A stretch of 64,000 nt of DNA from Telmatactis stephensoni (lineage: Eukaryota; Cnidaria; Anthozoa; Actiniaria; Isophelliidae). The notes under the pieces are model-generated. The model was given only the letters and a program-made list of their open reading frames with translations. It ran no database searches and was not told the origin of the DNA. The stretch is taken from assembly GCA_029948255.1 (NCBI GenBank), contig JALIZF010001688.1, forward strand, positions 489,501-553,500, written 5' to 3'. Positions 2,536 to 64,000 of the stretch are shown piece after piece; the stretch's first letter is position 1; every line of letters begins with the position of its first letter. The translations under genes were made by a program, and so were the position numbers.

Positions 2536-3693
2536 ATGAGCTGTTTATGTCCTTTCCCTGCATTTATTGGTGCAGTTAGCATGGCTGCCTCCACTCTCTT
2601 TTCAATAATCATAGAATCCCTGGAAGATGAAGAGGATGTCTGTCCTTTGTATCCAGCACACCACCTTTGCCTTTGTATAGTCATGTTAATACAAGTTTTC
2701 TCAGCTGTTCAGGGTATTTCTCTTCGAGCTGCTATTAGAATACTGTTTCCAACGTTACCAGGACAAAAAGATGAATTATGGCCTCGTCTGATCCGGAACC
2801 CAGTTCAGATGTGGGAGTTGACTGGTGAAACACCTGCAAGCCTTGCAAGGATTGTCCATAGAATATCAGTTGATGCTGAAAGATTTATCCGAAATTCCCG
2901 AAACCCAAGATACAGAGATATCCAAACAAGACCATTTGCTTTGACTACTCGTGACCGAATATTGATGCTATTTGTTTGGTTACGCACGTATCCGACTTTT
3001 TCACAACTTGGAAACCTGTTTGGAGTGGGTGCTACAACTGCAGCGGAAAATGTCCATATCCTTCTTCTAATAACACTTTTCCATTATGAACCCCTCTACA
3101 TAAGATGGCCTCGTTTACAGGTTTGGGACAGTTTACGAGGAACTATTGATGATTTTCCAGATGTAGTTGGCATTATTGACGCCACGCCAATCCGCATCAA
3201 CAGACCTCAAGGCAACCTACAAAGACTGTATTATCGCGGCGATCGTGGCTATCACTTCTTAAACTGGCAAGTCATAGTTGACTGTGATGGCTACTTCGTT
3301 TATGGCCAGGCAGGATATCTAGGTCACCTACCTGACGCAGCAAGCTATGCCATGATTCCAAGAATTGGGCATAACTGTGCTCTTCCGCTCCCAGTGAGCA
3401 CCTATTTGATGGCGGACAGTGGATATCCAACAGGATATCCACTACTGGTACCATTCTCACGTCGGGGCAGAAGACTAACAGCCAACATGCAATTGTTCAA
3501 TCGCTTGTTGTCTGTTCACCGAGTGAGAGTAGAACATCGCATTGGCGACCTAAAGATCTATAGGTGTGTCTCAAGTCGTTTTAGACACAGGCGCTGGAGG
3601 ATCAGTGGAGTGGCCAACTTAGTTATGGCCCTCGCTAATAGAAGGAGACGACTTTTCCAAACTATTAGAAGACAGGCAGCACATCGCCTGTAG
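2536..3693 (+). CDS. Harbinger transposase (HARBI1-like, DDE_4 nuclease)
   Basis: A single uninterrupted frame of 385 residues. The RNase H-fold catalytic residues are readable as Asp215 in GIIDATPIRI, Asp294 in LMADSGYP and Glu333 in VEHRIGDLK, a D-78-D-38-E spacing. An N-terminal helix-turn-helix-like region (around 130-175, TYPTFSQLGNLFGVGATTAA) precedes them, as in HARBI1 relatives. The protein would cut and paste the element in the nucleus, with the Myb-like partner encoded on the other strand. The first ATG of the frame was chosen; an upstream coding exon is possible because some relatives are longer. No stop or frameshift was seen, so it may be functional. Confidence 0.92.
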   Translation: MSCLCPFPAFIGAVSMAASTLFSIIIESLEDEEDVCPLYPAHHLCLCIVMLIQVFSAVQGISLRAAIRILFPTLPGQKDELWPRLIRNPVQMWELTGETPASLARIVHRISVDAERFIRNSRNPRYRDIQTRPFALTTRDRILMLFVWLRTYPTFSQLGNLFGVGATTAAENVHILLLITLFHYEPLYIRWPRLQVWDSLRGTIDDFPDVVGIIDATPIRINRPQGNLQRLYYRGDRGYHFLNWQVIVDCDGYFVYGQAGYLGHLPDAASYAMIPRIGHNCALPLPVSTYLMADSGYPTGYPLLVPFSRRGRRLTANMQLFNRLLSVHRVRVEHRIGDLKIYRCVSSRFRHRRWRISGVANLVMALANRRRRLFQTIRRQAAHRL

Positions 3694-9574: not shown

Positions 9575-11069
9575 GTGGTTACTGGCTTTATGCCAGTAAC
9601 ACACTATGTCATGGGCTTCAAGGGTGCGTGCGTGCGTAATTTGGAAATCCCCGAAGTAGAGCTGAATTGTCAAGCTGAAAGATATGCGAACTTCGTGCGC
9701 CCGTCCGAGGGTGTTGAAGTCGATTATTAACGACACGCACTCGTGCCCATGTAAAAGAAGCCCAAAATCGGCTTAAAAAGGACATTTAGATTAGCTGCCG
9801 CTAGAGTAAGAGCGATTGACATGTTGTCGTTAATAAACTTTTTAACAAGACGCACGTCGAACCGTACACTGGTTGCCTGTAGTTCAACAAGCCTCAGTAG
9901 TAAAGATCTTTAATTTGTCTTTCAACAGCTATTAGTGTTTGCCTTTTATTATCATGCATGGTATTAAATATCTCACATGCAAAAATATTCCCTGCGAATA
10001 TACCAGTTTATTCAACTTTTTATTTCACTATATATCTCAATTGTTTGCTGTAAAGACTTCTACAACGGCGTTTTTGACACAATAACAAATTGTGTATTTT
10101 TTCGTTCATGTTTCAGATGTTTTATCCATTACGTGACCAAACGCATCAGGTCAAATAGAACATAAAAAATATATTCTTGGTTTTCATGTGACGTCATCGG
10201 AAAAATTTATGCTTCATATTGATCACATTTAATTTAGTCTGAAGTGTGTTGCTTATATACCCTAAGAGAAGTTTTTCTTGAATATTTGAGAAATGTTCCT
10301 CGTTCGTTTTTCGAGTTATCAAAGGTAAAAACTTTGTCACGCAACACTGTCACGCGTTTTCCTCAGGACGTAAAACGATGAATTTGTTAGAAGTAAACAC
10401 ACATTTGGCTTGCTCTATGAATAAAACCATTGTTTATTGGGTATCTGTATCAGAATATATGATTAAGTTGATATTTTAAATGATTTTGCCAATCGTATTT
10501 ATTGTCCGCCATGTTGGTGCACTAAAGTTGTACACCAATATGGCGGCCCCATACATTTCTTTGTAATAACTGAGTTTGTAAAACCGTTGATATCTTTGCA
10601 TCGCAACATCTTTTGGACTCAAAATTTCCTGGAGTTATAAAGTTTTTCCTCCTCTTTAAGAGGATGTGCTCTGAATTTACTACGAGACATGAGATCCGCT
10701 GTTATTTTGATGACCTGTGGAGTGACACCAACTGCGATTAGTGCCATACATTTCTTACTAAAAATTGAGCACTTCAAAGGTCAATATCTTCGCAACAAAA
10801 GCTCATTTTAATTTGAAAATTCGTGAAGTTACAAAGTTTTACTTGCTCTTTAGAGTGATATTATTTTTATTTCACTCAGGGCTCTGGAAATTTTTCGATG
10901 ACGTAGGTGAAAACCAAGAATTGAATTTCAATAAACTTACCAAGGGCACTAGGACAAAGTCGGTGTGTGTGTATGCACTAGTCGAAGTAAACCCCTACCC
11001 CCACCCCCAACCAGGGGCAAGCCTTGAAATGTGTCTATATCTATATTTGGATTTGAGGCCAGTAACCAC
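9575..11069. mobile_element. Insertion inside the Gypsy protease, 1.5 kb, non-coding
   Basis: The protease reading is interrupted between EHLKIDLYEAM (minus strand, ending at about 11070) and KKRSKIQC (resuming at about 9574). The inserted block is bounded by the inverted motif GTGGTTACTGGC (9575-9586) and GCCAGTAACCAC (11058-11069). Each end can also fold locally: GTTACTGGC-TTTAT-GCCAGTAAC at the left, and GAGGCCA with TGGCCTC across the right junction. No protein was recognised, and I could not find a target duplication. Probably a non-autonomous DNA transposon; superfamily unknown. Confidence 0.6.
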
Positions 11070-11275
11070 ATGGCCTCATAGAGGTCTATTTTTAAATGTT
11101 CCCATAACTTCCGGTCCACCACATTACAACTAGCACCAGAGTCAATGATCATGTCTATTGGTATGCCTCCCACTTGAACCACGACTCGAGCATCAACTGC
11201 ACCATCAGAGCTACCATGAATACTAAATGCATATTTATCTTTATCTGGTAATAGGTCATCATCATCATCTTGCAC
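11070..11275 (-). pseudogene. Gypsy aspartic protease, N-terminal half
   Basis: Minus-strand frame with VQVGGIPIDMIIDSGAS followed by CNVVDRKLWEHLK. DSGAS is the retropepsin active-site loop. The reading enters the nested insertion after LYEAM. Confidence 0.85.
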
Positions 11276-11396
11276 TTGCCTTACGTTGTGTCTCCCACCT
11301 TTGTTTCGTTCACTTGGCTGGGCTCTACTATACTATGCTCTCTCAAAATGTCCAGTTCCTTTACACTTCCTACACTGCTTACCAATCGCTGGGCAC

Positions 11397-24860: not shown

Positions 24861-25138
24861 TTATATTCCTTAATAAAAACATAAATGTGACCGGTTTTCG
24901 TGACAACATTTTGTGACAGATTACGTCAAAAAATATTCAAAAATTTTCTCAAATATGATTGGCTAACAATCTCAAAGCTATTTACAAAACTAATTTTGAT
25001 TGGCTGCTTGAAATAACCTAACATACAAATGAATTTTAAGTGAAATCAAAGCCCGCCAAAATAATGTTCACTTTGACAACTGTAAGTCATGAACTTCAAC
25101 GTTTTTCCGCCAACTTATGGCATTTTTCATCCAAGTCT

Positions 25139-26994
25139 ATGAGGTAAACTTGTCTGTTTGTCCACCAATTACAAAAACATTGGCATTAGTTATTGAACAA
25201 CCACTGAAAACGGCATTTGGCAAGCTGTTTAGCGTGTTGACGGTGGTCGAGGTTCTGGAAGACATGACGGTGGCGCTTGTTGTAGGGGCGACCAACGATG
25301 TCCTATCTCCATCGCTTGATGCCAAGGCATTTGAAAGAACATCGGAGCATCTCACCAGCTGTTGTACTGATGGTCTACGATTGTAGCTTGCGATGCTCTG
25401 TTCATTGGCGTGACCCGAGATGTTCATAATGTGTCGAGCAGAAATCTCAGCATCTGACCACATGGTGATACTGGTGGCCCTTACACAATGGTTTGTGTAT
25501 ACCTTCGACAGTCCTGCTCCAGTGCTGATATTTCTCATCAATGTGGATAGTGTGTTTACTCCTACTGGCTTGTTTTCGTACCACACTGACTCTTCTTCAA
25601 AGACATTTTTCTTCGGATTCTGGAAGAATGCGGTTTGCTTTGGATTAAGCTTTGATTGATATGTACTTTTGGAGGCACCAAAATGAATCACCAGCTTGAT
25701 CTGTTGAATATAGTCTGGTAAGCTTTTCGTTGCTGTTTTTGTCGCCAATTCCACCTTGATGGTTTTTCGATGCCTCTTCGTGTGTCATGGTTACGTATTC
25801 TCTTCCATTGCCGTCTCTTTCAAAGCAAAAACTCTCACGGGTCAGCTCTCTTTGGCCTTCCACACCTCTACGGCACCAGTAGAGGGTGACTATAAACCAC
25901 ACTTGGTGAAGCAGACCAACTGGATTTTGGTGAGAAAGAAATTGACTTTTTAGCATCTTTTGTACATCGGAAGGCTCAATAACGGGTTTGTGTTTAGGTT
26001 TTTCATTGCCTTCACGCCTGTTGACTTTTAGCGTACTATTAAGCATTCTGTTGGACGACTGGAAATACGGATTGTTTGCAAACTTGATGTTGATGTTATT
26101 TGCTGCAAAGTGGCGCTCGATGGAGTTTAAGGGAAGCAAGGGTGGCCGAGCGGTGAGAGCGCCGGTCTGTCACCGCTGTGGTCCCTCGTTCAATCCCCGG
26201 ACGGGGCATCACATGTGGCTTGAGTTTCTTGTTCGTTCTCTCCCTTGCTTCGAGGGTTTTTTCTCCGGGTTCTCCGGTTTTTCCTCCCTCAGTAAAAACG
26301 AACTAGTTTTGATCTAAGCTGTGCTCCGTGATCAGACATGAGTCGTATGGTGGCTGCTACGTGTATGTGTATGTAAATTTGTATGTAAATGTGTGATTGT
26401 TCAATTGTCTCGTAATGAAAGCGCCCTTGTAAACCTTCGACTAGATCACGTTGAGCTGTGCCCTTCGTAATTCCACACTTAGCTGCGAGGAAGGGTGATG
26501 AGCTACCCCAAATTTATTTATTTTATTTATTTAGTTTCTAAACCCAAGCAGGGATGATCTGCTATACTTTTCTCCGGCCTTGTTCCTGGCTTCTGCATAG
26601 AATCGCTTGAGAGTTTGGTCTAACTCATAAGTTGTCATCTCCAGTAATGGTTTCTTTATTTCCCGCTCACGGCACCAGTCTATCGATAGGACCATGTATT
26701 TGTAAGTAATTAAATTTAATTTTTTATCAAAAAACGATATTAATTAACATAGCTTCAATGTCTATACTTACCTTCAAGAGTTTTCATAACCCATTTTGTA
26801 TTTTTCTTAGTGCCTTTGGCCTCGGCATTGGCAACTATTTTTGTTAGATCACTGTCGCTTAGCTCTACAAATCGTGACTTCTTGTTGTCTTTCATTGATT
26901 TTTCTTCCACTTTATTTACTTCCACTATCAAATCTTCATCGCTTATCAATTCATCAAAATCAAAACCAAAATTTGGCACGTTTTGTGAGGCCAT
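25139..26994 (-). pseudogene. Crypton-type tyrosine recombinase, copy B
   Basis: Exon 1 (26772-26994) starts MASQNVPNFGFDFDELISDE and ends at a GTAAG donor. The intron is 26680-26771, and exon 2 opens DWCREREIKKPLLEM in phase. The core-binding part (FRN-SIERHFAANNINIKFANN) is cut by a SINE at 26129-26532. The catalytic part has LYWCRRGVEGQRELT (Arg), TNHCVRATSIT (His-x-x-Arg) and SGHANEQSIASYNRRPS (Tyr). A one-base frameshift near 25650 separates it from the front. Apart from the SINE and this shift the protein is well preserved, younger than copy A. The tail is Ser/Thr-rich with FSGCSITNANVFV. Confidence 0.8.
26129..26532 (+). mobile_element. tRNA-derived SINE inside the Crypton exon
   Basis: The head GGGTGGCCGAGCGGTGAGAG resembles the A box of Leu/Ser tRNA genes, and GGTCCCTCGTTCAATCCCC the B box. 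A conserved body (TTTTTCTCCGGGTTCTCCGG) and a tail of TTTATTTATTT repeats follow. The target duplication AGTTT is at 26124-26128 and 26533-26537. Removing the SINE and one copy rejoins the Crypton reading ...GFRN|SIERHF.... RNA polymerase III transcription is expected from the boxes. Confidence 0.9.
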
Positions 26995-27448: not shown

Positions 27449-27997
27449 TTACTCACCAGCAGTCTGCTGGGATGGATAATTCTCCATCCTTTCCAGCTCT
27501 TCCTGACTCTTGAGCAAATGATGCAAATGCAATGTTTTTTGAGGGACCAAAGTGGATTTTCTTTGAACGTACTGACAGTCCACCCCCATACCAAAAGCGA
27601 TTGTGGCTATGAGTACACTGATGACTCCTTTTGGATCTTGGAAAGATCTCCAAACAGATTCTTTGTTGGATTGGGGGCTACAGGAGTGAAGCATTTCCAG
27701 CACTACTTTAGTTTTGTCAATATTGTCAATATTGTACATGGATTTTCCAATACTTGACTTCAGTGTCAAATACAAGTGACTACATTGCTGTATTGTTTTG
27801 CAATACATGATTGTTCTATCAGTGTTTACACCATTCTTAATCATTTCCTCAGCCAACCACTGAAAATGTTCGCTGATATTTTGAGATCTATCTATATACT
27901 TCACCACATAAGCTTTCATTTCCAAAACACCTACTATTGCCATCTTTGTTCCCTTTGTAGCAGTGGCAGTAGAATTTTCAAATTTACAGGCTTTGGC
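27449..27997 (-). pseudogene. RecQ-like helicase fragment
   Basis: Minus-strand reading has TATAT (RecQ ALTATA-type motif) at about 27965, then FQWLAEEMIKNGVNTDRTIM, YCKTIQQCSHLY and VLIATIAFGMGVDC (helicase motif V). After a frameshift comes IHFGPSKNI and QESGRAGKDGE (motif VI). The Walker A/B half is missing. A GTGAGT donor follows at the low end. Known role of the family: ATP-driven 3'-5' DNA unwinding. In this context it may have belonged to a transposon, but that is inference. Confidence 0.72.
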
Positions 27998-27999
27998 AC

Positions 28000-28690
28000 T
28001 AATAGTGCCACATACTAATTAGCATATGTAGTGTGTGCAATCAGTGCGTAACACTTACACTGTGCATCAGAAAACACACATGGCATTTTTAATCATTTTT
28101 CTTTTCCACACTGAAACAGCACTTTCTTATTTTAGACAAAAGAAATAGGCTGTTTTAGTGTGGACGGATAGCCATCAAAATCAGCTAACAAACGTATCTA
28201 GCCCTTAGCAAATAACTAGAAATAACAACTGTTCTGTGGGCAGACAGTCCATAACGGCAAAACGACACATTTGAGCCTGCAGTACGTATAAGAGATTGCT
28301 CGATACTCGGATAGCATAGTTTAGAGATGAGGTCTAGGAAAAGAATTCTGCTTTGCTTGTAATGTATGTATTGGCTGATTCAGATGAGTCATCAAGCTGC
28401 ATTAAACAATTCGGATATTAATCTTCACTTACGCAGGAAACGGCAGACGGCAGAGACGATCTTGCGGCCTCCTTTTTTTCGCAGCTGCTGATGTGCGTTT
28501 GGAACTCAAACGTGAGCTTGTCTTTCATGTTTGACGACAAATGCGAAATGACTTATCTTCGCGTTCAAATGCCAACGACAAATGTGAAAAATGTTGTCGG
28601 CAACTTTGTGACCCGCACCGGCACGATTCACGGGGGATTAAAACACGTCTCATACGATATTAGCATGGAAATGAGGCTACATCTTAAATC
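28000..28690. other. No supported feature
   Basis: No convincing frame. A short open frame at 28491-28742 overlaps the outer repeat of the next element and is probably chance. Confidence 0.45.
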
Positions 28691-47539: not shown

Positions 47540-47870
47540 TGTCAGGGATCATTTACTTAATGTTTAATAGAATTGGATTGTTAACAATATTTATAACACC
47601 GGCCAAGGACATTATGGAGTGTACAATCTTAATATGGAGAATCGAAAATTACCCCCGAGAGTAATCTTTACCCTCGGATTAGCCAATCATAGTCAAGTAT
47701 TTTTGAGATATGTCAACGAGAGTAAAATTTACTCGTTGACAGCCAATTACGTTCAAGTAGATAAGTAAATTTTACTCTGTTTGGTAAAATTTACCGCTAT
47801 GTTTTGCCATATGTTCGCGAGTTTTCTACAAAATCAAACTTAAGGTTAAAATAATCTAATATCCGAATGT

Positions 47871-49560
47871 TTTCTTTGTGATTTTGTGTAGATTTAAAGT
47901 TATATGAAGTGATTTCTTTGATATTCTTACGATGAAATCGGAAAACGCTTGTCACACAACTATGGTCTTGGCCCGCCATCGATTTAGCTGACCCGATCGC
48001 TATTCGATTATCCAGACTCAATAAACAACACGTTCATATAATTGCGTTTTTTTCTGCAGAATTATTGTATTCAAACATGTCTCACTTCTAGCGCTTTACA
48101 GAAGTACCAACGTTTTTAGTCATCTCAATGCTGTGGTTTGAGTAAAATACCAAAGTAAAATTTACTCGTTGACAGCCAATTACGTTTCAGTAGACAAGTA
48201 ATTTTTACTCGGTTGGGTAGACATTACCGCTATATCTTGCCATGTGCTTGGCTCGGCTCAAGCTTAAACTGATCCAGACTCATAAACTTCTGGGGGTTTT
48301 TTCGCTATAGAATATATTATCTTACTTCTAGCAATTTACGAAAGTGCAAGTTATCGTAGTATTATATTTAAGTCATCGTAAAATTTACTCGTCGAGAAAC
48401 CAATTACGTTTTAGCAGTTAAACGTAATTTTTACTCGGTTGGGTAAAAATTACCGCTATATATCGTTGTATGCTTGTTGAGCTCTGAAATCGCGCTCAAG
48501 GTCAAATTCTTGTGACTGTACAAAATGTCATGCTTTTCATCAATGCTTTTCATCACATGCATGTAGACTCATAAACTATATAGTTTCTGTAACCTGGTAA
48601 CTGCGTTTTTATCTTGGAATACAGAAATGCCAACTTATTTTAGTCGTCGCAATGTTGTTATGTTGAGTGGGTCTTGAGTAAATTTCCAGAGTAAAAGTTT
48701 CTCGTTGCAAAGCCGAATTATGTTTCTGATCAGTAGATACCAAGTAATTTTTACTCGGTTGGGTATGTTCGATTCAAGCTTACAGTACTTACAGACTAGC
48801 TCAGACTCATAAACAACACAGCGAAATTGCGTTGTTCCTCCATATAGAACACTTTTTTGGTTTTCTAATAGCACTCTACTAAAGTGTCAACGTGTTTACC
48901 GGCGTTTTAGTCATCGTAACATTATACCTCTTCCGACACGAGTAATTTTTACTCAAAGCAATTACTAGTACCTAAGCCAACGAGTCGTGATCCTCATATA
49001 AAGCCAGACGTTGTCTGCAATTGTCTTCATAAGAATTTATTTTAGACATTTCTTTGAGTAAAGAAACAAAAAATCGACAACCGACGAATAATTTCTTGAA
49101 ATCCACCTATGAACTGGGCTCTAATCTCGCGCCGACTGACCTGTCAGTCATGATGATCAGTTGTTTGGCATCACCGTAGGCTCAGATTTCAGCCGTCAGG
49201 GATTCGTGCGCCTAGCATCACCGTCGATCATCCCAGAGCATGTTTGGGGGAATAATTATTTGCCAATGTTTAATTTTGTTTTATTTAGATTATCATTATT
49301 ACACATCTTCTAAAAATATCACGTATATTTACAGTCACAGAAAGCAGTAAAGTTTACCATTTACCGTTCCCTGTCGATTACCTGTCGATCAGTGAAATTT
49401 TGTAAACTAATTATGAATTCCAAAGTACACTTAAACTTGTCACCCTCTGTACGCTTTATCAGCCATATTATAAAAAGGATATAAAAAAGTTCTAGGTTGT
49501 TACAATTGGCACTTGAAAGGTGACAAAAATTGTACTTCTTTAAATTGAACAATCTGAAGC
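47871..49560 (+). repeat. Left TIR of the large transposon
   Basis: About 1.69 kb matching 61895-63563 in inverted orientation with scattered small differences. One extra block of about 45 bp lies near 47980 (CGCCATCGATTTAGCTGACC). It is built of degenerate units each holding GTAAA(A)TTTACTCG, CGGTTGGGTA, ACCGCTATAT and AGACTCATAAAC, at about 48150, 48380 and 48690, with a related unit near 47725 outside the matched part. Confidence 0.92.
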
Positions 49561-49913
49561 TGCAAAAACGCTTGAGTAAATTTACTCACAAACTTGAGTA
49601 TTTTGATAATCATTTACTCAGTGTCTGATTAAAAATACTCTGATTTTGAGTAAATTTACTCACATAGCTGAGAAAAATTCTTACTCACATATCTGAGTAA
49701 TTTTACTCACAAACGTGAGTACGACTCGATTTTTACTCAGAAATTTGAATAAATGGCACTCAAAAATCTGAGTAAAAATTTACTCGCACATATGAGTAAA
49801 TGGTACTCGAGTTTTACTCAAATAACTGAGTAAATTTACTCACATTAATAAGTCACTGTGGATGCATCGAATTACTCAAGTTTGTGAGTAAATTTACTCG
49901 CGCGTTTTTGCAG
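49560..49913. mobile_element. MITE packed with GAGTAAATTTACTC palindromes
   Basis: TIRs of about 41 bp: CTGCAAAAACGC then GAGTAAATTTACTCACAAAC on the left, inverted on the right ending GCGTTTTTGCAG. At least four exact GAGTAAATTTACTC palindromes and several one-base variants lie inside. It is inserted at the inner edge of the left TIR; the right TIR has no counterpart. Confidence 0.85.
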
Positions 49914-49971
49914 AGTATCTAATAATGATGAACTTTGCTTTGATTGTCATGTCGCTGCTTAGGCTTGATGA

Positions 49972-52900
49972 TCACGTCTTTTTACGTGGTTGTCCTCTTT
50001 TCTTCTCGCTTTTTTTAGTTGGATTATTCTTCTTGGATTTCTTCTTCGCCTGCGTTTTTGCCTTCTTCCCCACCAAAATCTAACGCAGAATACAGAAAAA
50101 AAAAACGTTTTGTATGAGAATAAATGATTTTCAAAATCAGTTGCACACAAGTTTGTTTTTTAATCACGGGAGGAAAGCGTTCTTCTTTTTCGAGAAGTCG
50201 TTTCAATTCATTCCTCTGCCTCTTTTCTTCTTCACTCTCTGTAGGCGCTACTTCAGTATTCTTAAATTTCTTAATTGATGACATAGGCCATTTGGTCTTC
50301 CCAAGGTCTTTGACCTGTTTGGGGGTCATTTCGTCCCACATTGCCCTGTTCGACTTTTCATCTGCCGCAAAGTTGGACCACCAGGCAACATCTTCGTCTG
50401 TCATTCAGTGGGAACTTGCCTTGACTTTGTCTGCTAGTTCAAGCAGGTCAACAGGTGTTCTTCCCCCAAGTTTGGGCCGTATTAGTTGAGGTAGTCCATC
50501 TGGTGTTGACTTAAGCAGCTGAATTGGTGGCTTGTTTGTAGGCTTCCATATGTCATCCTGAGCCCAGTTCTTATACACCATTTTTCCTTGTTTATCCTCT
50601 CCGCGAAAGAACTTGAAAGCATGCGGGTAAACGTGGTTCTTGAGAGGTTCAATGTGCTTGTCCAGCCAACCAGAGATATTGAACATGTAGTTCAAATCAT
50701 GTGTCTCTGGCGCCGGACTGTATGATCTTTGCACTGTATCATGGAGCATGGGCACTGTCATGACTTTGTTTCTTTTTAATTTGTGGGAAATCCTGCTGAA
50801 AAGCTAGAAAAAAAAACACTTGCCATTTAGAACATTGCGATAAGGTACTAAACACGATTTAAAAAGTAAGAACCAAAAAGATATGTTCCTACATTTTATA
50901 TGGTCATATATCTTTTAAACTTTTTTTAATGTTTAGTATCTGTCGCAAGGTTTTATAATAAAATTGTACACAAATACTTTCAAAAATCGCTATTTAGCCG
51001 AAGACAAGCCTGAACATATTAAGGGGAAAACTTCTTCTGACAGAGGAAATCAGTATCTTAGAAGAGCGGACAAGATTGTAAGTTGTAATTATTTCGTGGA
51101 AAGCTCGATTACTCTTGCTCAAACTATACCTGATCAACGTCCTCATGAGTGTGTCTGACCATAAGAAACGACATGTAGATCTGTTGTGTAAAAGGTAAAA
51201 TAAATTAGATTGAGCTTCAATTAATTCCCCATTGGTAGCTTTGGCATGCTATTAATTTGTTCACCGATCGACGTTTCTTTATATAGTCGGGTCCAAAATG
51301 ATAGAACAACAAATGATAGAATATGAGACCAAATGGCATTCTGGGATATGAATAAATAAATAATTACTATTATATATAATAAAATTCTATACCTCTTTAA
51401 AGATACCTTGTTGTACAAGGTATGACATGAATGCCATGATAAATCTATTCTTGCATTCTCTATAACAATTGTCCATTTGCAAGAACAGTGTTGGTGGGAG
51501 ATTTTCATCCTTAAGGAACAACAACAAAAAAAGAAAAATTGAAAAGACAATAATTGCATAATAATTGCCCAATGTTCTATACAACCCACCTTTGATAGTT
51601 GTACAAATATTTGTAGAAGCACATTTAGAGTCAGATTTGAGTCGTGCTTCCATGACATCAAATCAACGAAAGAGAACACCTTTTTATGGCCATGGGAAAT
51701 TGCACCTGTAATGTGGGTCTTTAGATAATGGCAGGGCTCACTCTGTAATTGCATAAAAGTAATGAAAATTTTAAAGTTTAAATTAACCCAGCATGATTTG
51801 TACGTAAGTAGAGCGGTTTCCATATGAATGGGAAGCTGACTGTAACAATCACTGTACAGTTACGATGCTGTTTGTGCAAAATTTTCGACTTTTTTATTTT
51901 CCCACTCATACAAAATCGCTGTTCTATTCTATCTCCACAACATACTTTTGATATGGTTGTAACATGAGGCAAGTTAGTCTTTGCCTGGTCCATCCCATCA
52001 ATAATCAAAGACAAGTACTTTTTCGGTTCCATTTCCACCTTTAACCGGTTTCCGTAATATTGATTACGTTCACCACTGTAATACAAGAAAAATAGAAAAA
52101 AATCACAAACCATTCTTATATTTGCAACGTATTTGTTAATTAGTGACTGAAACATACGTTTGCTGGTTTAAATGGATTCTCCGTTTTTGATTTATGGACA
52201 TTTTTTCTTCATTGTCCTGAGTATTACGCAGATTGTGCTTAATGAGTGTACATACTCCACACTTGGTGAACTTGTTTTGCTAGGAAAAATAAAATAAAAT
52301 TATTAAAAGAAAGAAAGAAAAAGAAAACAAAACTTAAACTAAACTGAAGAATCTTAAATCTCTTACCTTTGGGATGATGACATTGCTGTAATATCGTTTC
52401 CACATTTTTTTGAAAGAAGAATTAGAAATTGGATTCGTTTTGGCCTTCAAGCACGCATGTCTGTATAATCCATAAATTTCCTTTTTGGACTCACACGAAG
52501 GAAGACAAATGCGGTGTTCGTGTGGCATTCTATCTCCTGAGCGTTCGATGTGGCCTGCAAATCAAAAGCAAAACCATTTAGTTATGAAAGGATTATTCTC
52601 GTGGCCGGGTTAATTTTCGTGGATAAAAAGATCGTACCTTTCAACCACAATATTGATTTACGCATTCGTGCTGTCATCCATGTTGTGCCCTTACGATTAC
52701 TGGCTCCACATACTCTTCCTCCTTCGAAGTCTTTAAGCAAGGAATAAAACCTTTAAAACAGACAAAGAGCTCAATACATTATAAAACTTAGCAATCATAT
52801 GGGATATAAAATTGTGTATTTTGTTATTAATTACCATCCATTTGATATTCCTAATGCTTTGTACCATCCATTCTGACAGACTTTCGTTCCATTTATTTGA

Positions 52901-54322
52901 AATGAATACCTCCTTTGCGAGCCATTGTGGTATGTATTTAGCTTGAAGGCATTGAGAAGGAACTGCCTCTTCTGTTCTTCCGTTTGCTTCCAGAACGGTT
53001 TTCGAAAGCTCTTTATTTCAGGCCCCCTGAATGATTTCAAACAATTTTCCTTTTTCCCACATCCTTTTGATAGTACTTGGATGATCGCCTCTTCATCCAA
53101 AGCCTTCGCAATTCGTACTTTCCCCTAAAAAATATAGTATATATAGCGCGCATTTAAACTTTGGTATGGATTTCTCGATCCATAATACACTCGATATAAT
53201 TCATACTACGCAGGTGTTACATAATTTTAGACAGTTTAAACCTAATTTTAAAAGATAATTTACACAAACTTAAAAAAAACAATAATTCATAAGGCAAACA
53301 CAATGAAAATCGCCACCGTGACGAATATGATTTTTTTGATTTTTTTATAGAACAACTCTAATTTGTGTTGGAGTTTTTTTAAGCCATATAAAGAACTCGA
53401 GATCTTTATATCTTTCTATCCGATAAACACTCTCTCTCGTTCTTTATACTATATTGCCGAACGACATGAACACAATGTCTCCTACCTACCAAGGTTTTTT
53501 GCTGGGATTGACTGGGTATAATGGCTGGCATTTCATTTTCATCTTGATATTGTTGGAGAGTTTGCTCTGCTTCGTGCTGTAAAAAAATGTGAATTTCAAA
53601 GTCAATTGACTTGTTCAGAGCAAAACAGTTTGATTTTAATGGGATTATACATTATAAGACAAAAAAAAACCCACTCAAGCTGAACGCCTTCTTTATGTAT
53701 TTTTGTATGCATTCCTAAAGTTCTAAAGAACTAAAGTTCTTTTTACTTTGGACGTTTTTGCAATTACAATAAATTGCAATTGTGTATATATTGTTTATCA
53801 GTGCTAAACATGACAGCGAAGGGAGACCACTGTTTGATAAGCTTGTTTAGCAAGCTAATTTTGAGTTTATTCCGGATGTAACGCCGGCTAGCTAGTGGAT
53901 GTGATTCCGTCACACCACTACATTTTAGCAAGTATTAAGTTCTCTCGAAGCAGATCTATGGCCGCGCGAATAAATTAAAAACATCGATACCAAGACCAAT
54001 TGGAAGTAGCCAAACAATTTGTAGCCAAAAAGAAAATAATAATGAAATAAAAATAATATACTGGCAAGCTAGTGAGCTGAAAAGGTTTACCACTATATAT
54101 ACTCTATAATGTATAGTTCTTACCTCCGTGAATTCCAATTCGTCTTCATCTTCGCTCGATTCTTCACTTGAGCTGCATTCTGTCCAGCGCGAGGGCATTT
54201 CCAAAGCGACCTTTGTACATGAGGACATGATTCCCATTTATTACATTTCCTATCGTTCAAGGTAAATATAGCAAATGGCTTACCCTATGATCTGGGTCTG
54301 GATCAATATCTGTGTCTGACAT
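49972..54322 (-). CDS. DDE transposase, DUF7869-like, 13 exons
   Basis: Exons (high to low): 54284-54322, 54124-54210, 53490-53576, 52835-53124, 52638-52750, 52367-52554, 52158-52279, 51946-52075, 51590-51742, 51393-51509, 51130-51180, 50147-50803, 49972-50079. All phases join, giving about 713 codons. An acidic N-terminus is followed by FRKPFWKQTEEQKRQFLLNA, and a Cys/His-containing region (PHEHRICLPSCESKKEIYGL; CGVCTLIKH). The catalytic core is LSLIIDGMDQAKTNLPH, VDLMSWKHDSNLT, LFLQMDNCYRECKNRF and MVRHTHEDVDQLFSR, spaced D-80-D-38-E. The tail is lysine-rich (KKKSKKNNPTKKSEKK). Odd: one TGA at 50405-50407 between ASSH and MTDEDV, and Arg where relatives have Gly before HTHED. The donor of exon 12 is weak. 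Confidence 0.85.
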
Positions 54323-56611
54323 GGTTTTCTACGCTGTATTAAATGCGGAAGTTCCAAACTTTGAATGTATCACTCGTCTTAGTTGCAGTGATTTATTAAT
54401 TTTTGCATTTTTGAGTCCGGGAGTTGAGGAATGAGAGATGATCTCGTCTTCTACTGCAGATGTCAAGATGGATTTTTGAATTTCGCGGGCTTGTTATGGA
54501 GTATTTATAGCTGTATACGCGATGCCATAAATGGTCTGACATGTGACTAGATTATGATATTATAGCTACAAAAAGCAGCGCCGAGTAAATTTTACTTCGT
54601 GCTGGGAAACGGCATCGCAAAATTAACAATCTCAAGTTTCCCATAAGTGCTACAAGTTTCAGTTCAACACTGCAGTGTTCTTAATTGTATTTTCATTCGA
54701 GGACAAAGTTATTTGGTTCCAAATTGCTTTCATGTCAAGTATTAACCAAACCTATAGCAGCATAAAGGAAAGGCGGGATTTTGGAAGTACTACAATGTCA
54801 TTGTGGATATTTTAAAGAAGTTCAAGCAAAGAAATGTCAGAATAAAATCACAAATTTTGTCAATTCATGTACAAGAAGAGTGCGTAGACATTTATCTAAG
54901 GACTTATCACCGGGACTTATCAAATATCACAGTTCATAGAATCGGTGAAGATATACAAGTTTACAAAGATTTTTATGGTAAAATTTACTTGAACATGATA
55001 CTTTCATCCGTTTGTGATAGGCATCACACCACACCCCACGGAATTGCGCGCAATCATTGTCAATCATAGTCCAAATCATAACAATGGAGACTTCCCATTC
55101 CAAATTTCTATAGAAATTCTAGTTGTAATTGGTCGATTTATGCATAAATAGGGCAAGAGGCTACTCTCCAAGTGTATCTTGATTTGAATTTTTTGTCTCT
55201 TAAATTGATATTGAATCTCGTACGGAATGGTAAACTTTACTGTCATGCAATACTGGTTTGTCATTGAAGATGGCGGATATTACCTCACCTAAGGAATGTA
55301 GATCCCAATGGTAATGGGTTATTATGTAAATCAAAACGCATTTACCATTTTCTGGTCAAAATGCAATCAATGGGTATTGATTTTTTCATACAAATGCAAC
55401 AAATTTCAGTGGATATATAACTTTGCATATTATAGAGGCCAATTTCCATCGATATATATTTCGTAAATTTTGGAGACCTAGAAAGTACTCATTTTATTCG
55501 CCGTTTTTATTTTTTGTTCACTTGAGTGCGTTGGCAATCATTTTTTAGCACAAAATTCCCGGGGCGTTTCTCCTTCGCTTAGTAAAAGGGCTAAAGGGCT
55601 AGGGGACGAGGTTTCAAAGTACAGAAAACTGGTACACAAATATCTAAGCGAAAACCATGTCCTGTGATGATAAATAGAAGTATCGTGATCTTCCCAGGTT
55701 ATATCCACAGGGCGAACATATTGAGATTTACGCTAAAGGAAATCCGACGGAAATCTGATGGAAACTAAGTATACGTCAAGCGTATACGTTTAATAGTTGC
55801 AAAAATCAGAATCTTTTTCCGTCACATTTCCGTTGACGTATTCTTGTCTTTACGCTAACAGGAATGAATGTTTACGAGGACGAAATAGTGTTTAATTCAC
55901 ATCAACAAATTTCGTATTCACTGGTAGGATCGATTTTTTTCATATTTTTCAAATATCTTTAATAAATTTCTATCTATAAATTTATGCCTTAGAAACTTGA
56001 AACTTGTTTTAAATCCGTTTATTCATGTTATAAATCAGTATACAGCCAAGAAATTGACAATTGATATTGACAATTTCTGTAAAAAGTGCAAGTGTAAGTA
56101 CAAGGTCACATGTCTATAAGGTGATGAATGTTACCCTCTTGCACAACACACCAATAACCTTTGAGGTCAAACAAGTCTTTCGTACGTTTACCCGGCCAGC
56201 ATGACTCCAAAAGACTCCAAGGGACGTTCCCGCTCACGTAAACTCAACGGAAACTTAGTATAGTCTTAGTCTGATTCCGACCGAATTTCCGATCTCGGAA
56301 ATCTTTCTTTTCGCCCCATTAAAAATTCTGAATCCAGAGGCTCCACTCTATCTTCTAAAGATCACGCGATATAGAATACAAGAAGTAAAACAAGTCATAC
56401 GGCTGTTGCTTTAAAATTACTTTTCATAGTTATCTGTCACCATACAAGTGGTCGCTATTTCTCCAATCTCGTTATCCTTTTTATCTTGATTGCCAACACC
56501 CTCGTCTTGGGCGTAAACTCACGTAAATAACTGCGTAGATTGTTTCACAATTATGTCGTCATAATGTTGTGAGGTATTCGGCTCTAAATAGCTCCAACTG
56601 ATTCACACACC
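54323..56611. other. Intergenic region between the divergent transposon genes
   Basis: 2.3 kb with the start of both genes pointing outwards. One frame of 88 residues (54803-55069) is open but compositionally weak. A GAGTAAATTTTACTTC word near 54594 echoes the TIR motif. The rest is AT-rich without further coding signal; promoters of both genes should lie here. Confidence 0.55.
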
Positions 56612-56648
56612 TATATAAATAAGTCTTTTCAAGCTTGTAAATCAGTTC
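56612..56648 (+). promoter_or_regulatory. TATA box and initiator of the Ulp1-protease gene
   Basis: TATATAAA at 56612-56619 and TCAGTTC at 56642-56648 are spaced so that the initiator A lies 32 bp after the first T of the TATA box, as in metazoan core promoters. The ATG follows at 56724. Confidence 0.6.
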
Positions 56649-56723
56649 AGATCAGACTTTCTATTCAACTGTAATAGAGACTAATAGAGATACACCGTTC
56701 ACCATTCGTTCTTTATTGTGACT

Positions 56724-59700
56724 ATGGAAGGGTTTTTTTCGGAACCATTCACTCCTGTCGCTCCTGTCTCCGCACCAGCAGCAACCACGGGATTCAGTGG
56801 TAGACGCCTTTTCGAACTTGAATCCTTTTCTTCCACAACTGCCTCCAGAGGATTTGTACCAATTCTGCCAGCGACATCAGTTCCGGGGGTAAATATTTCC
56901 ACTCACAATGTCGCTCTCACAAAGAAAACTTCAAAGTACAATCCGCCGGAGTTTGTTGATACAGTTAAGTATATGCGGCGCAAATTGTTTGAGGCCGCCA
57001 AAAGAATGGCTGGCAAAGAGCCCGACGAAACGCCGGAAGACAAAGCAACCCTTGCAGCGTGGAACGAAGGTCTCAAAACCGAGTCTTGGTATACAGATAC
57101 AACTGTAAGTAAACTTTTATAATCATTCATCTATGCATGGTTGATGGTACAAAACTAATACGAAAAAGTGTATTTGAAAAAGTGTATTCTGTATCGTTTG
57201 CAGCAGCTGAAATTTTACCTCAAAACAGCGCGGCTATCAAAAAGGTGTTTCGCCAAAGTCCTTGAAATTGGGGAGAAAATGAAAATGGGAGTCCTCAACA
57301 TTGGAAACTCTTCAAAATGCACACAATCAACATTTAAGGACATATTATACAATGTAACTGAGAGTGAGCAATTTGATATACTGGACGTGATGAGCAAAGG
57401 AGAATTGAGTTTGAAGGACTTAAGAAAGAAAAAGGTATGGGATACATGTAGATGCATCATCGGAATTTCTGACCCTTTAGTACCTCTAGCCGAAATTCGT
57501 CTGTTTCTCGCCTCACCACATTTGCATTACTTACTTACATGCATTTTGTTTTATAGACGCAGATGGTGCGGGAAGTTAAAACAGTAGCTCACGGTGAACA
57601 AGCTGAGGTGTGTATGGTTTGACCTGATGCAACTTTCACGAAGTAAGGGCGGAGATTGTGACGATGCATATTGTACACTAACTTTAGCTCCTTGGATCTG
57701 GACTGATAAAAATGTTTGACTTACGTAACAAATCAATGCTTCCTACGTCCTTTTTAAAACATACATATAGTTCGCTGTAGTACTAAATGACCAGAGAGAA
57801 TATGCAAGTGTCCTAGTTGGCCCTTTGGGAACTCACTGAGGATTTTTCTTGTACCCGCATCCGGTTGAGGCTAGCAGCCCCAGGGAATTCAGCTGATAGG
57901 TATAGTTGTAATTTTATTTCTCAAATGCTTAGATCCAAGACCTTGAAGAAGAGCTGAAAGACCTCAAGAGCAAACACATCGAGATGAGGATCCATTTAGA
58001 AGATGTAAGGTTATTAATTAGCATTCGTTCGTCAATGACTTCATTTTTATTCACTTCATTATGCAAAGAAAGGCAACTCAAATGACTATGTGTTTTATAC
58101 TCAGACATTAAAAGAATGCAACGAACTAAGGGCACAAAACAAGGAGTTGACAGAAAATTGTTCCCAACTTGAAGCAAAATTTAAGAAGGTATATAAATTT
58201 GTAATTTAATTAAATTTAAAAACTAGTTTCCTTTCCTAGTTTTCTTGTAGTTTGACGTACGTTGTTTGTTTGTGATATAGGAGGTGTCAAAACTGCAGTC
58301 CAAGGTAGATTTCCTTGAAAAGGACAGGAATACTTGGAAGAGTTTGTATGTTGATGCAACAGTGTTGACACAAGCTAATTGTATACAACTTAAGGTAAAG
58401 TCGTGACCAGCTGAGTAATTTCTTTACCTTTACCAGCTTACGTGTCTCAAATTGTGATGTTTTAACAGGATGAAAAAAAAATGCAAAGCAAATGCGGCTA
58501 AGAATGAAAAGTCCACAAAGGTTGACAAGGAAGAGGTACTGCAATTTCAGCAATTTATAAACAATCATGTCTGTTTGCCATTTGTATAAAGAAAATGGGT
58601 TACATTACCATTCCTTTAAGTTTCGGGAAGATGAAGCTGAAATACCCACTGAGGTAAAGGAGTCTGTTGTTGCAGAAGAGGCCAAGGTACAATTCGAAAT
58701 GAAATTTTGTCTTGATGCTTTTTGCTTTTTTAATCTTATGTCTTAACCTTAACAGCTGACCGACAATGCAGATATAATCGGCAGTACCAGTGATGAGGCT
58801 GAAGATGAGGATGGTTCTGAAGACTCAAAAAGCGATGTAATTACAAATTCCTTATTCTGTACTCCCTGTTATTTATTTGATGTCGCACTGACCTGTTTAA
58901 TGTGCATGATATTAACTTTCAGATTGTTGACCTCCAGTTGGAATTGACCGCTTTACGTGACCATTGGAAGAAAAAGCACGATCAAATTCAGAGTGTGAGT
59001 ATCATGATCACCTCTTATCTTTTTATAACACTACAACATAAAATACATATTGTCTGTTTCTATTAAATTTTTATATATTTGTAGATGGTAAAGTTCTCCG
59101 CAAAAATAGAAGATGCAGGCACAAGCGAACATAGACCCATTGAAAAGGTAAATGTTTGTCCTAATATTATATTTCTCCTATCTATACTGGAGCAATGTCT
59201 TTCAATCGACCTTTTACATTTTCACATTTCACTTTATGTCAGAGAAAAAGCGCAAGAGAATGTGATGCCGAAAGACAATATCGGTCGTCAAAGAGAATCA
59301 AGCAGGTATTATTTTTACGACTACTGACTAGCTTGCAGGGCTGTGAGCTGTTGACGGAACTGAGTACTGTCTGAGCATGATATCACAGTTAAATCAAACT
59401 ATCAAAATCTCGATTATTTTCCAGGAAAGCCGTACTGATGAATGGGTAGCGGTGTATTACACCGATGGCTTTTATATTGGGAGAATCCTTGACGCCAACG
59501 AAAACCAAATTAAAGTAATGTTTCTTGAGAGAAGACCTGGCTCGTGTTTTGAGTTTAAAACTCCCAAACCTGAAACGGATACCGTAGAGCCAGACCAAAT
59601 ATTTTTGAGAAAAATGAAAATGGCCATCAAAGGGAAGCACCAGTACACTGTTGAAGCTCCCCAACTTAACAGCATTAGACAAATGTATGGCAAAATTAAG

Positions 59701-61719
59701 AAGGTAAAATTAACTGTCCAACTGTTCTAACTGTTCTATTTAAATGCATGGTGTCCAGCATATATATGAATCCCACCGAATCCTTAAACCTGTCTGTCGA
59801 TACGTTTTTTTTTTTAGTTGTACAAAACGTGGAAAGTGTCTAAGCTTTCCGATCTCGATCGGATACTTATTCAAAAAAATGGAGTGGTATTGAACTTGGC
59901 GTCGTTCAAAATGCTTCAGTCGACGATCTTGGGAGAAGAACTGTCAATGATGAAGACATTCCATAAACCAAACAACTTTACAGTGGGATGGTTGAATGAC
60001 GAGGTTAGTTTGAATGTAGGCTACTTCGTGGTAACCCAATTCGACGAATGGAGTTTTTTCGTTGTGCGATTGTCGAGATTGTCTGATAAATGCGTTTATT
60101 GTTTTTTAGGTTGTCAATATCACTATAGAGATTATTGCAAAAGCTGCAAAAGAAAAGGTCAATAAACTGTTATTCTTAAATTGTTGTTAGTCATGTGAGC
60201 TGAGTTTGTTCTGGTGAATATTGATTTTGCGACATATTTCTCACAAATTTACATATTAACTAAAACAATGCAAGATAAGGCCAGTCTCTGTGTATCTAGC
60301 AACCTGAGTAGCTGCAGCCTCGTTGTGAGAAACGAAGTTGATGGAAAACTGAATTGCGGCACATTCCAACTAACTGATCTAAACTTCTTCATTTGTTTAT
60401 TTTCTTTGTATATTTCTAGGGGATGAGTGTGTTAGCATTTAGTTCATTTTTTGTCCCAAAATTGTTGACTGCTGAACACAAACACGGAGAAGCAAGCCAG
60501 AGAATCAAGTGGATGGATAAAGTAAGAACGAGCTTACGGGTTGTGATACTGCGGGCTGGTTGTTGTTGATCCCCTCCCTCGATTTAATATGTGATATCCC
60601 TTATCGAAGTGATCTAGATGGTGACTAATAACTGTACCCAGGTGTAAAGTGGAGCCCAGAAACGGGAGGCCACACATATGATACACATTTTAATTTTTCC
60701 CTTTCTAAATTTCAATTTTGAACCACACCCTTCCTGTTCATCTGCCTTTTCAATACAAGAAAAAAATACTGCCAAACGTTCCATTCATTTATAGATATCT
60801 CTTTTTACCTTCATCACTAATTGAAAGTAATTTTGAATGCCAATATGTATTGCAATTTTAATGAATTAGGCCATAATTTACATGATATTGTTAACTATAA
60901 ATATTATTATGTAACAGGTCGACTTAACAGCTTATGAGATGATCATTGTTCCAGTTAATATTTATTCACACTGGACTTTAGGGGTAAGATTTATTTGTAT
61001 TTTGATTCATATCAAAAAGTGTATTTTAAATCAGTTACAGAAAATTGTTTAAGACTGACACTGAGTGCTCGATGCAATATTAATATTCCGCACAGGTTAT
61101 CAAGCCGGGTGCAAGAGAAGTTCACCATTTTGACAGTTTGGGAGGAAGGGGAGAGACGTTCTTTCGCTGTGTAAGGTATCAGAAAGAATACAAAATGAAT
61201 TATCCACTGAATCTACTATTTAAATTCACTGTAGTTTCATGCTCTCTGGTAGCTGCTCGGATAAGTGTAAAATTCAATGGTTGACTTTTAATACAAGCTT
61301 ATTGACGGCTCGGTTATAAATTTTCCTTTGTAGGACATTTTTCAAAATGCGTGGACTAACTGAGGTAGAGGGTTGGTCGTTTGTCAATAAACCAATGCCA
61401 ATGCAAAATGACGATGTCAGCTGTGGAGTTTTCATGCTAAAGGTCAGAGTTTCTATTAAACAGTGTGACAATAGGGACAATGCAATTTAATATGTTTTTT
61501 CTTCATTTCTAAAGATGGTCGATTGCTTATGCAGAGGGTTGGAGGTAGATTTCAGCCAGGTACAAGCATTATATTTCAGTTACTTTTAGTTGTGGTTAAA
61601 AGTCACCCTTCAGCATTTATGTTTCTCTTCTTTCTTTCTCTGAGCAGGCTGATGTCGAAATCTTGCGCTATGAGTTTGCAGAAAAAATTCTCCACGAATC
61701 AGCCAAGTCCAACAAGTAG
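56724..61719 (+). CDS. Ulp1/SENP-type (C48) protease protein, 21 exons
   Basis: Exons: 56724-57104, 57204-57434, 57557-57607, 57933-58004, 58105-58188, 58281-58394, 58469-58535, 58621-58686, 58756-58836, 58923-58994, 59085-59147, 59243-59305, 59425-59703, 59818-60003, 60110-60157, 60420-60521, 60918-60983, 61096-61175, 61334-61442, 61515-61559, 61648-61719. About 776 residues. An N-terminal region (residues 1-205) is followed by a coiled coil (about 220-330), acidic and basic stretches, a Tudor-like segment (EWVAVYYTDGFYIGRILDAN) and the protease: GWLNDEVVN, SSFFVPKL, YSHWTLGV (His), HHFDSLGG (Asp), MQNDDVSCGVFML (Gln, Cys). All four key residues are present. Exon 7 has nine A where eight keep the frame. 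ATG 56724 was chosen over an upstream GTG. Confidence 0.87.
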
Positions 61720-61894
61720 GGTTAAGATGATCCCGGCGCAGTAAACATCATCACAATTGTTACTGTATCGTGTTTACACCTTGGTCTTCACTGTTATATC
61801 TATATCGCTTTAGTTCTTTTTAAAACAAGATAGAACAAATACAAAATTCGGTGACCCATTACGTAGAAGCAGAACGTTACTGTGAATTACTTCT

Positions 61895-63563
61895 GCTTGA
61901 GATTATTCAATTTAAGAAGTACAATTTTTGTCACCTTTTAAGTGCCAATTGTAACAACCTAGAACTTTTTATATTTTAAATATGGCTGATAAAGTGTACA
62001 GAGGGTGACAAGTTTAAGTGTACTTTGGAATTCATAATTATTAGTTTACAAAATTTCACTGATCGACAGGTAATCGACAGGGTACGGTAAATGGTAAACT
62101 TTACTGCTTTCTGTGACTGTAAATATACGTGATATTTTTAGAAGATGTGTAATAATGATAATCTAAATAAAACAAAATTAAACATTGGCAAATAATTATT
62201 CCCCCAAACATGCTCTGGGATGATCGACGGTGATGCTAGGCGTACGAATCCCTGACGGCTGAAATCTGAGCCTACGGTGATGCCAAACAACTGATCATCA
62301 TGACTGGCGGGTCAGTCGGTGCGAGATTAGAGCCCAGTTCATAGGTGGATTTCAAGAAATTATTCGTCGGTTGTCGATTTTTTGTTTCTTTACTCAAAGA
62401 AATGTCTAAAATAAATTCTTATGAAGACAATTGCAGACAACGTCTGGCTTTATATGAGGATCACGACTCGTTGGCTTAGGTACTAGTAATTGCTTTGAGT
62501 AAAAATTACTCGTGTCGGAAGAGGTATAATGTTACGATGACTAAAAAGCCGGTAAACACGTTGACACTTTAGTAGAGTGCTATTAGAAAACCAAAAAAGT
62601 GTTCTATATGGAGGAACAACGCAATTTCGCTGTGTTGTTTATGAGTCTAGCTAGAGCTAGTCTGTAAGTACTGTAAGCTTGAATCGAACATACCCAACCG
62701 AGTAAAAATTACTTGGTATCTACTGATCAGAAACATAATTCGGCTTTGCAACGAGAAACTTTTACTCTGGAATTTTACTCAAGACCCACTCAACATAACA
62801 ACATTGCGACGACTAAAATAAGTTGGCATTTCTGTATTCCAAGATAAAAACGCAGTTACCAGGTTACAGAAACTATATAGTTTATGAGTCTACATGCATG
62901 TGGCGGCGATCTTATCGTGACGGCCCATTGATGAAAAGCATGACATTTTGTCTACACAAAGTCACAAGAATTTGACCTTGAGCGCGATTTCAGAGCTCAA
63001 CAAGCATACAACAATATATAGCGGTAATTTTTACCCAACCGAGTAAAAATTACGTTTAACTGCTAAAACGTAATTGGTTTCTCGACGAGTAAATTTTACG
63101 ATGACTTAAATATAATACTACGATAACTTGCACTTTCGTAAATTGCTAGAAGTGAGATAATATATTCTATAGCGGAAAAAACCCCAGAAGTTTATGAGTC
63201 TGGATCAGTTTAAGCTTGAGCCGAGCCAAACACATGGCAAGATATAGCGGTAATGTCTACCCAACCGAGTAAAAATTACTTGTCTACTGAAACGTAATTG
63301 GCTGTCAGCGAGTAAATTTTACTTTGGTATTTTACTCAAACCATAGCATTGAGATGACTAAAAACGTTGGTACTTCTGTAAAGCGCTAGAAGTGAGACAT
63401 GTTTGAATACAATAATTCTGCAGAAAAAAAACGCAATTACATGAACGTGTTGTTTATTGAGTCCAAGACCGCATAGTTGCGTGACAAACGTTTTCCGATT
63501 TCATAGTAAGAATATCAAAGAAATCACTTCATATAACTTTAAATCTACACAAAATCACAAAAA
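61895..63563 (-). repeat. Right TIR of the large transposon
   Basis: Inverted counterpart of 47871-49560 over about 1.67 kb, from GCTTGAGATTATTCAA at the inner edge to CACAAAATCACAAAAAAG at the outer. It begins about 175 bp after the protease stop codon. Confidence 0.92.
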
Positions 63564-63824
63564 AGCATAATTTTGCTTTGCAACGATTTCTGTATTCCAA
63601 GATAAAAACGCAGTTACCAGGTTACAGAAACTATATAGTTTATGAGTCTACATGCATGTGGCGGCGATCTTATCGTGACGGCCCGCATTGATGAAAAGCA
63701 TGAAATTTTGTAGTCACAAGAATTTGACCTTGAGCGCGATTTCAGAGCTCAACAAGCATACAACGATATATAGCGGTAATTTTACGATAACTTGCACTTT
63801 CGTAAATTGCTAGAAGTGAGATAA
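63564..63824 (+). repeat. Rearranged duplicate of internal TIR sequence
   Basis: From 63589 the sequence repeats 62829-63020 almost exactly (TTTCTGTATTCCAAGATAAA through GGCGGCGATCTTATCGTGAC to TATAGCGGTAATTTT). It then jumps to the block at 63118-63157 (CGATAACTTGCACTTTCGTA). This replaces the expected outer end. Confidence 0.85.
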
Positions 63825-63825
63825 T

Positions 63826-64000
63826 TGCTGCGAGTGAAGCGAGCAGCGACACTAATCTTGCACATGCGCGGCATGTTTATGTACCAGCTCTGAACTCGAT
63901 TCTTGGTGGGTAGGCACGTACGTTTATGGATGTAGCGAACGATGATTTGTGACGTCATCAAAATATGCTTGGAATGATCGCTGACCACGCGATTGGAGTC
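63826..64000. other. Flank with a GCTGCGAGTGAAGCGAGCAG palindrome
   Basis: GCTGCGAGTGAAGCGAGCAGC is a near-palindrome at 63828-63848, probably the start of another dispersed repeat. Nothing coding was seen to the window end. Confidence 0.4.

Follow-up and report, generated by a model that had tools for sequence, protein, structure and literature searches.

What kind of mobile element carries, between one pair of inverted repeats, a gene for a domain without a described function and a gene ending in a SUMO-protease-like domain? The question is raised by a stretch of 64,000 nucleotides from Telmatactis stephensoni (the window; G000:C246:489501-553500, in an assembly of 483.5 Mb and 1,782 contigs), where a preliminary description had recognized a 16-kb transposon pairing a DUF7869-like transposase with a Ulp1-type protease. 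We consider it highly probable that the element is a cut-and-paste DNA transposon with a DUF7869 transposase and a divergent, modular helper gene. The argument is carried by its exact termini and long terminal inverted repeats (TIRs), by the recurrence of the gene pair between the same termini, and by 4-bp target-site duplications (TSDs) with unoccupied counterparts.

The ends of the element are given by a terminus pattern (AACACCGG...CCGGTGTT) that matches, on both strands, at positions 537095 and 555275 of contig C246. The whole element (G000:C246:537095-555275) thus measures 18,181 bp and runs from window position 47595 to 65775, which is 1,775 bases past the window end; the alignment of a second copy, on contig C25, starts exactly at 537095. 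The parts that concern us are:

47595..64000, no strand: the transposon as far as it lies in the window (terminus pattern and C25 alignment)
47591..47594, plus strand: left flank TTAT, the expected TSD, its length taken from other copies
47595..49543, plus strand: left TIR, starting AACACCGGCCAAGG, about 1.95 kb
49560..49913, no strand: array of short AT-rich palindromes (GAGTAAATTTACTC type) adjoining the left repeat, with related motifs in both repeats
61911..64000, minus strand: right TIR, rearranged, with an internal 99-nt duplication, broken from about 63826 to 65051 and continuing past the window

The element had been placed at 47640..63824. It is indeed there, with both termini elsewhere: position 63824 is not a terminus, as it marks the start of about 1.2 kb of foreign sequence (from window position 63826 past the window end; C246:553326-554551) that splits the right repeat. 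The right-repeat positions matched on either side of this foreign sequence overlap by 4 bases, the pattern expected of a nested insertion that made a 4-bp duplication. Likewise, the inverted repeats said to be 1.7 kb long are present, in a different size and form (about 1.95 kb on the left, rearranged on the right). They start with AAC, their main blocks of 612, 471, 249 and 93 nt are complementary at 96-100%, and these repeats, together with both domain matches described below, are far beyond chance. Palindromes of the form GTAA-(A/T)n-TTAC occur 10 times in the left repeat and 7 times in the right, compared with 2 in the 11.9-kb interior and 1 in the remaining 47.6 kb of the window. None are present in the repeats of a second family of copies (family B, below); a family C repeat has none either, but has six GTAACATTAC-type sites.

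The first gene, on the minus strand, encodes the putative transposase:

49974..54322, minus strand: transposase gene, 12 exons plus a probable 13th, with an in-frame TGA in exon 12
54322-54284, 54210-54124, 53576-53490, 53124-52835, 52750-52638, 52554-52367, minus strand: exons 1-6
52279-52158, 52075-51946, 51742-51590, 51509-51393, 51180-51130, 50803-~50150, minus strand: exons 7-12
~50090-49974, minus strand: probable last exon, its intron placed uncertainly
50557..52075, minus strand: catalytic region, extent approximate (Pfam DUF7869 plus the first Asp just upstream)

Residues 354-542 of its product match DUF7869 (PF25273) with an E-value of 7.9e-78 and 260.9 bits against a gathering score of 26, making it a full member of the family; the closest DUF7869 proteins, from the sea anemone Exaiptasia, are 58-63% identical. 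Three motifs, IIDGMDQ, QMDN and HTHEDVDQ, supply D335 (just upstream of the Pfam match), D416 and D458. In an alignment of 53 of the 60 DUF7869 protein matches (seven were left out), the motif aspartates are found in 49 of the 49 proteins with a letter there (D328), 53 of 53 (D409) and 51 of 51 (D451). The third motif reads HEDxD in animals versus HDHID in the transposases of a metagenome bin discussed below, which suggests that its last Asp, rather than the Glu, is catalytic. From these residues we infer that DUF7869 acts as a three-aspartate (DDD) transposase. An RFX-like winged helix before DUF7869 was also considered; it matched 2 of the 53 proteins (best E 3.6e-4, under the Pfam cut-off) and is not claimed.

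The second gene is divergent from the first and lies on the plus strand:

56724..61719, plus strand: partner gene, 21 exons
56724-57104, 57204-57434, 57557-57607, 57933-58004, 58105-58188, 58281-58394, 58469-58535, plus strand: exons 1-7, exon 7 being one base out of frame
58621-58686, 58756-58836, 58923-58994, 59085-59147, 59243-59305, 59425-59703, 59818-60003, plus strand: exons 8-14
60110-60157, 60420-60521, 60918-60983, 61096-61175, 61334-61442, 61515-61559, 61648-61719, plus strand: exons 15-21
57557..58535, plus strand: coiled-coil exons (coiled-coil-type Pfam matches under the cut-off; heptad-rich look)
59425..59703, plus strand: Tudor-like exon (WVAVYY...FYIGRI...), named by its look and conserved in families A, B and C
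59818..61719, plus strand: C48 (Ulp1/SENP) protease domain, extent approximate

The Tudor-like module has no Pfam or PDB match. At the C-terminus, Peptidase_C48 is matched with an E-value of 2.8e-22, and the catalytic residues are present (H in SHWTLG, D in HFDSLGG, Q in MQNDD, C in SCGVF). The exon phases of the two genes had been described as closing over 13 and 21 exons: the 21 exons stand, as do 12 and a probable 13th, while closure fails at the slip in exon 7 of the partner and at the TGA in exon 12 of the transposase. A weak alternative donor can bridge partner exon 7, and the closed phase described earlier may have come from it. The TGA is not the natural end of the gene, because the C25 copy reads through at that point. 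Apart from the uncertain transposase intron, all 31 introns of both genes are GT-AG. A gene finder returned the same main exons and some spurious small ones; having been trained on those exons, it provides a consistency check only.

Does the pair recur? An exact-terminus search of the genome gave 17 matches to the pattern of families A and C and 5 to that of family B, against 0 for reversed controls. Nine loci have both exact termini (C25, C246, C295, C126, C293, C685, C1383, C60 and C268) and four have one (C177, C510, C695 and C582; C605, with a changed terminus, is uncounted). They include the following copies:

Family A: C246, C25, C295 (4,857 bp, no genes found) and C605 (one end, changed terminus)
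Family B: C60 (17,302 bp, TIR about 2,450 bp, 99.2%), C268 and C582
Family C: C293 (17,386 bp, TIR about 2,456 bp, 99.6%), C1383 and C685, with C126 placed here from matches and termini alone

Both genes lie between the same TIRs at eight of the nine two-terminus loci, neither at the ninth (C295), and a single gene at none; copies of this last kind had been named in advance as evidence against the pair. Homologous exons of both genes were recovered in families B and C. Genome-wide, the best 150 of 182 DUF7869 matches were condensed by hand to 89 loci, to which other searches added five (94 in total), and matches from three protein queries for the partner were condensed by hand to 42 loci. A partner match lies within 30 kb of 22 of the 94 DUF7869 loci, and all 22 pairs are divergent (0.12 divergent pairs are expected by chance); one additional pair is not divergent. 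Same-family copies among the 22 are not independent and represent, by eye, about eight lineages; in C166 and C413 the partner is recognized by weak Tudor-only matches (34-36% identity), and in two other lineages by N-terminal matches alone (41-43%). Two further arrangements were observed. On G000:C83:768803-781318, a C48 match (minus strand) and a DUF7869 match (plus strand), each in one long open frame, lie divergently 12 kb apart, possibly as an independent pairing; C1101 resembles this arrangement with a spacing of 23 kb. On G000:C664, Tudor-like and C48 exons at 212213 and 216026, 3.8 kb apart on one strand and with no DUF7869 found nearby, would belong to a further partner-like gene.

Target sites provide the second line of evidence. 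Both ends could be read in five copies, and three of these, one per family, are flanked by perfect 4-bp TSDs: TTGG (C295), ATAT (C293) and TTTA (C60). Unoccupied sites, with joined flanks and a single TSD copy, were found for two of the three copies tested, as the preliminary description had proposed to look for. The joined flanks of C293 occur uninterrupted at eight places (93-96% identity); those of C295 occur best at C645 (99% over 156/156 bases) and at many more places with lower identity. Because the targets lie in repeats, these sites are related copies and not proven alleles. The fine exon structure of both genes looks host-like, as would be expected if two host genes, domesticated or neighbours by chance, were simply flanked by unrelated repeats. 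This explanation has a negligible probability in our view, being refuted by the many copies at different places whose ends are exact, by their TSDs and unoccupied sites, and by the 22 divergent pairs. That the element is a TIR transposon, as first described, is supported.

Is the protease a constant part of this transposon? C48 was surveyed with a hidden Markov model (HMM) over the open frames of C246, C25, C60, C268, C582, C293, C685 and C1383. Its exons were found in families A (C246, C25) and B (C60, C268, C582), while family C (C293, C685, C1383) gave no match up to E=1; the family C partner terminates at a stop of its own following the Tudor-like exon, as observed in two of the three copies (C293 and C685). 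Common to the partners of all three families are the N-terminal region, the coiled coil and the Tudor-like module. The protease had been presented as the defining partner, which is not supported: family C lacks a detectable C48 and a metagenome bin has a different divergent gene. One may then ask whether it is a captured, SENP1-like host passenger, carried as chance cargo outside the transposition machinery. The closest solved structures to the family A domain are SENP1 and SENP2 (PDB 6nnq, 2ckg; E about 8e-25), which it resembles by sequence and in its His-Asp-Gln-Cys residues, differing from them in being appended to a coiled-coil/Tudor-like transposon protein. Together with the absence from family C, and with a ratio of non-synonymous to synonymous substitution rates (dN/dS) of 0.81 for the partner between C246 and C25 (0.50 for the transposase; synonymous rate dS about 0.03), this resemblance favors a passenger. 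Families A and B, however, whose partners are about 25% identical overall, have both retained C48 at an equivalent position, its four catalytic residues included, and all three families retain the coiled-coil and Tudor-like portion. We regard the passenger explanation as unlikely, and favor a modular helper within the transposon.

Relatives in other hosts extend this picture. DUF7869 proteins are known from cnidarians, lancelets, echinoderms, molluscs, hemichordates, nemerteans and an ostracod. Among bacterial and archaeal genomes, scanned by sequence pattern, the only relatives were on 11 contigs, each titled as a metagenome-assembled genome (MAG): eight from one bin called Trichormus, two from Bacteroidetes bins and one from an Arcticimaribacter bin. 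A scan of IMG/VR, pattern-based as well, returned 46 stretches, none of them a relative. The Trichormus-bin contigs are probably eukaryotic sequence that contaminates a cyanobacterial bin. Their transposases are intronless (872 aa in contig L053), and a divergent second protein of 549 aa in L053 is matched in five of the eight contigs (L051-L054 and L057); in the other three, the transposase match starts 736-879 bases from the contig end, which is too short to tell. This second protein looks ParB-like, a name that Pfam does not support, and these contigs showed no TIRs. When the C-terminal half of the window partner served as query, only 16 proteins were matched, all with C48. The three-family partner alignment matched no protein among 8,000 scored candidates, which is a weak negative for other species, because repetitive coiled-coil words probably took up much of the list of candidates.

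Tentatively, and with somewhat less than even confidence, these elements may form an unnamed DDD superfamily, present in several phyla of animals as well as in one or more other lineages and defined by a divergent second gene that is swapped between hosts. The swapped gene would be coiled-coil/Tudor-like, the same with a captured SENP1-type desumoylase, or ParB-like, and on this reading the helper would act as a plug-in for handling host chromatin. A literature search that covered few subscription papers found no paper naming DUF7869; among the matches listed, none described a transposon pairing DUF7869 with a Ulp1, SENP or Tudor-like protein, and those listed for the motif GHTHED were, by title, all on unrelated subjects.

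Alternatively, Repbase may already contain the superfamily of this element, a Sola group being the likeliest, and only the helper would be new; we hold this to be rather improbable. Sola elements have a DDD transposase and 4-bp TSDs and are present in bacteria. The first two features fit the element described here, with its DDD rather than DDE (Asp-Asp-Glu) triad, while the third sits poorly with DUF7869 relatives confined, in the bacterial and archaeal scan, to the 11 MAG contigs. Moreover, at E<=1 the transposase matched no Pfam transposase family besides DUF7869, and the TSDs include TTGG. For Sola2, excerpts of PMC3627910 give AT-rich 4-bp TSDs such as ATAT and AAAT, a likeness to our often AT-rich TSDs, and TIRs of 12-21 bp, in contrast to up to 2.5 kb here. 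A convergence criterion of E below 0.005 appears in an excerpt of PMC4455052. Compared with Sola by their described features, our elements are regarded as a candidate superfamily of cut-and-paste transposons with an exchangeable helper.

Ulp1 proteases in transposons are themselves known, from Ginger1 and Mutator elements (excerpts of PMC2836005), and many Ginger1 elements come from Hydra. The element could accordingly be of the Ginger1, Mutator-like (MULE), Zisupton or Kolobok type, which is very improbable. Like our element, Ginger1 is an animal DNA transposon with a Ulp1 protease and a 4-bp TSD; in the same excerpts, however, Ulp1 is a C-terminal fusion to a Gypsy-type integrase, the TIRs are about 40-270 bp and the TSD is CCGG or CCGT, whereas here the protease is on a separate divergent gene, the TIRs reach 2.5 kb and the TSD is variable. 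Ginger1 integrases carry Ulp1 or OTU at the C-terminus, and no Gypsy-type integrase, MULE or KDZ match was found at E<=1 in Pfam. The TSD of MULEs is 8-11 bp, compared with 4 bp here. Excerpts of PMC12730594 and PMC9587614 give 8 bp for Zisupton/KDZ and TTAA for Kolobok and piggyBac; the 4-bp TSDs here include no TTAA.

Several observations weigh against a DUF7869 transposon with a modular helper. Two of the five two-ended copies have no matching 4-mers (C1383, AACT/ATAT; C268, TGAT/GTCT). Because the left flank of C582 also ends in GTCT (C582:256485), C268 (G000:C268:401058-420251) is perhaps a contig chimeric through near-identical copies, or a recombination product. For C60, the genome search for an unoccupied site gave only its own two flanks. 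A PDB search with DUF7869 found no transposase, the best match being RFX5 (E 0.12). No partner was detected at 72 of the 94 DUF7869 loci, where many were probably missed, since only three protein queries were used for diverged genes with short exons. Conversely, no DUF7869 was found close to 20 of the 42 partner-like loci, which include C595 and C247 (with a truncated partner resembling that of family A) and a large number of weak Tudor-only matches. Both genes of the window copy are damaged, by the TGA and the one-base slip; the C25 copy has neither lesion and, by alignment, has indels in other exons, and stops also appear in the gene-finder models made for families B and C. Finally, the partner's dN/dS of 0.81 points to weak constraint between recent copies, with values of 0.52 against C595 and 0.48 against C247.

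Elsewhere in the window, the following pieces were observed:

2485-3693, plus strand: Harbinger-like transposase open reading frame (DDE_Tnp_4, 1.5e-19; HTH_Tnp_4)
10949-11332, minus strand: retroelement-like aspartyl protease piece
25137-25784, minus strand: tyrosine-recombinase piece, Crypton-like (DUF3504/Phage_integrase, both under the cut-off)
27449-28018, minus strand: Helicase_C piece

How might such a two-gene transposon operate? The DUF7869 transposase would bind the repeats, with the short palindromes as candidate binding sites, cut the ends and insert the element with a 4-base stagger. The partner would dimerise via its coiled coil and read chromatin via its Tudor-like module. Where it is present (families A and B), the SENP1-type protease may additionally act on proteins at the site, freeing the transposase, silencing factors or repair proteins of SUMO. 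The helper would be modular: its protease can be missing, and other hosts have another helper altogether. Repeats that are 99.2-99.6% alike in the measured B and C copies suggest recent movement, and therefore a working system may be found.

For DUF7869, a domain of several animal phyla whose Pfam description contains no function, the link to TIR elements with TSDs implies a likely role as a transposase, and the Telmatactis genome harbors several families of a large two-gene transposon. These elements also offer a testable case of transposons recruiting SUMO-removing and chromatin-reading helpers as exchangeable parts.

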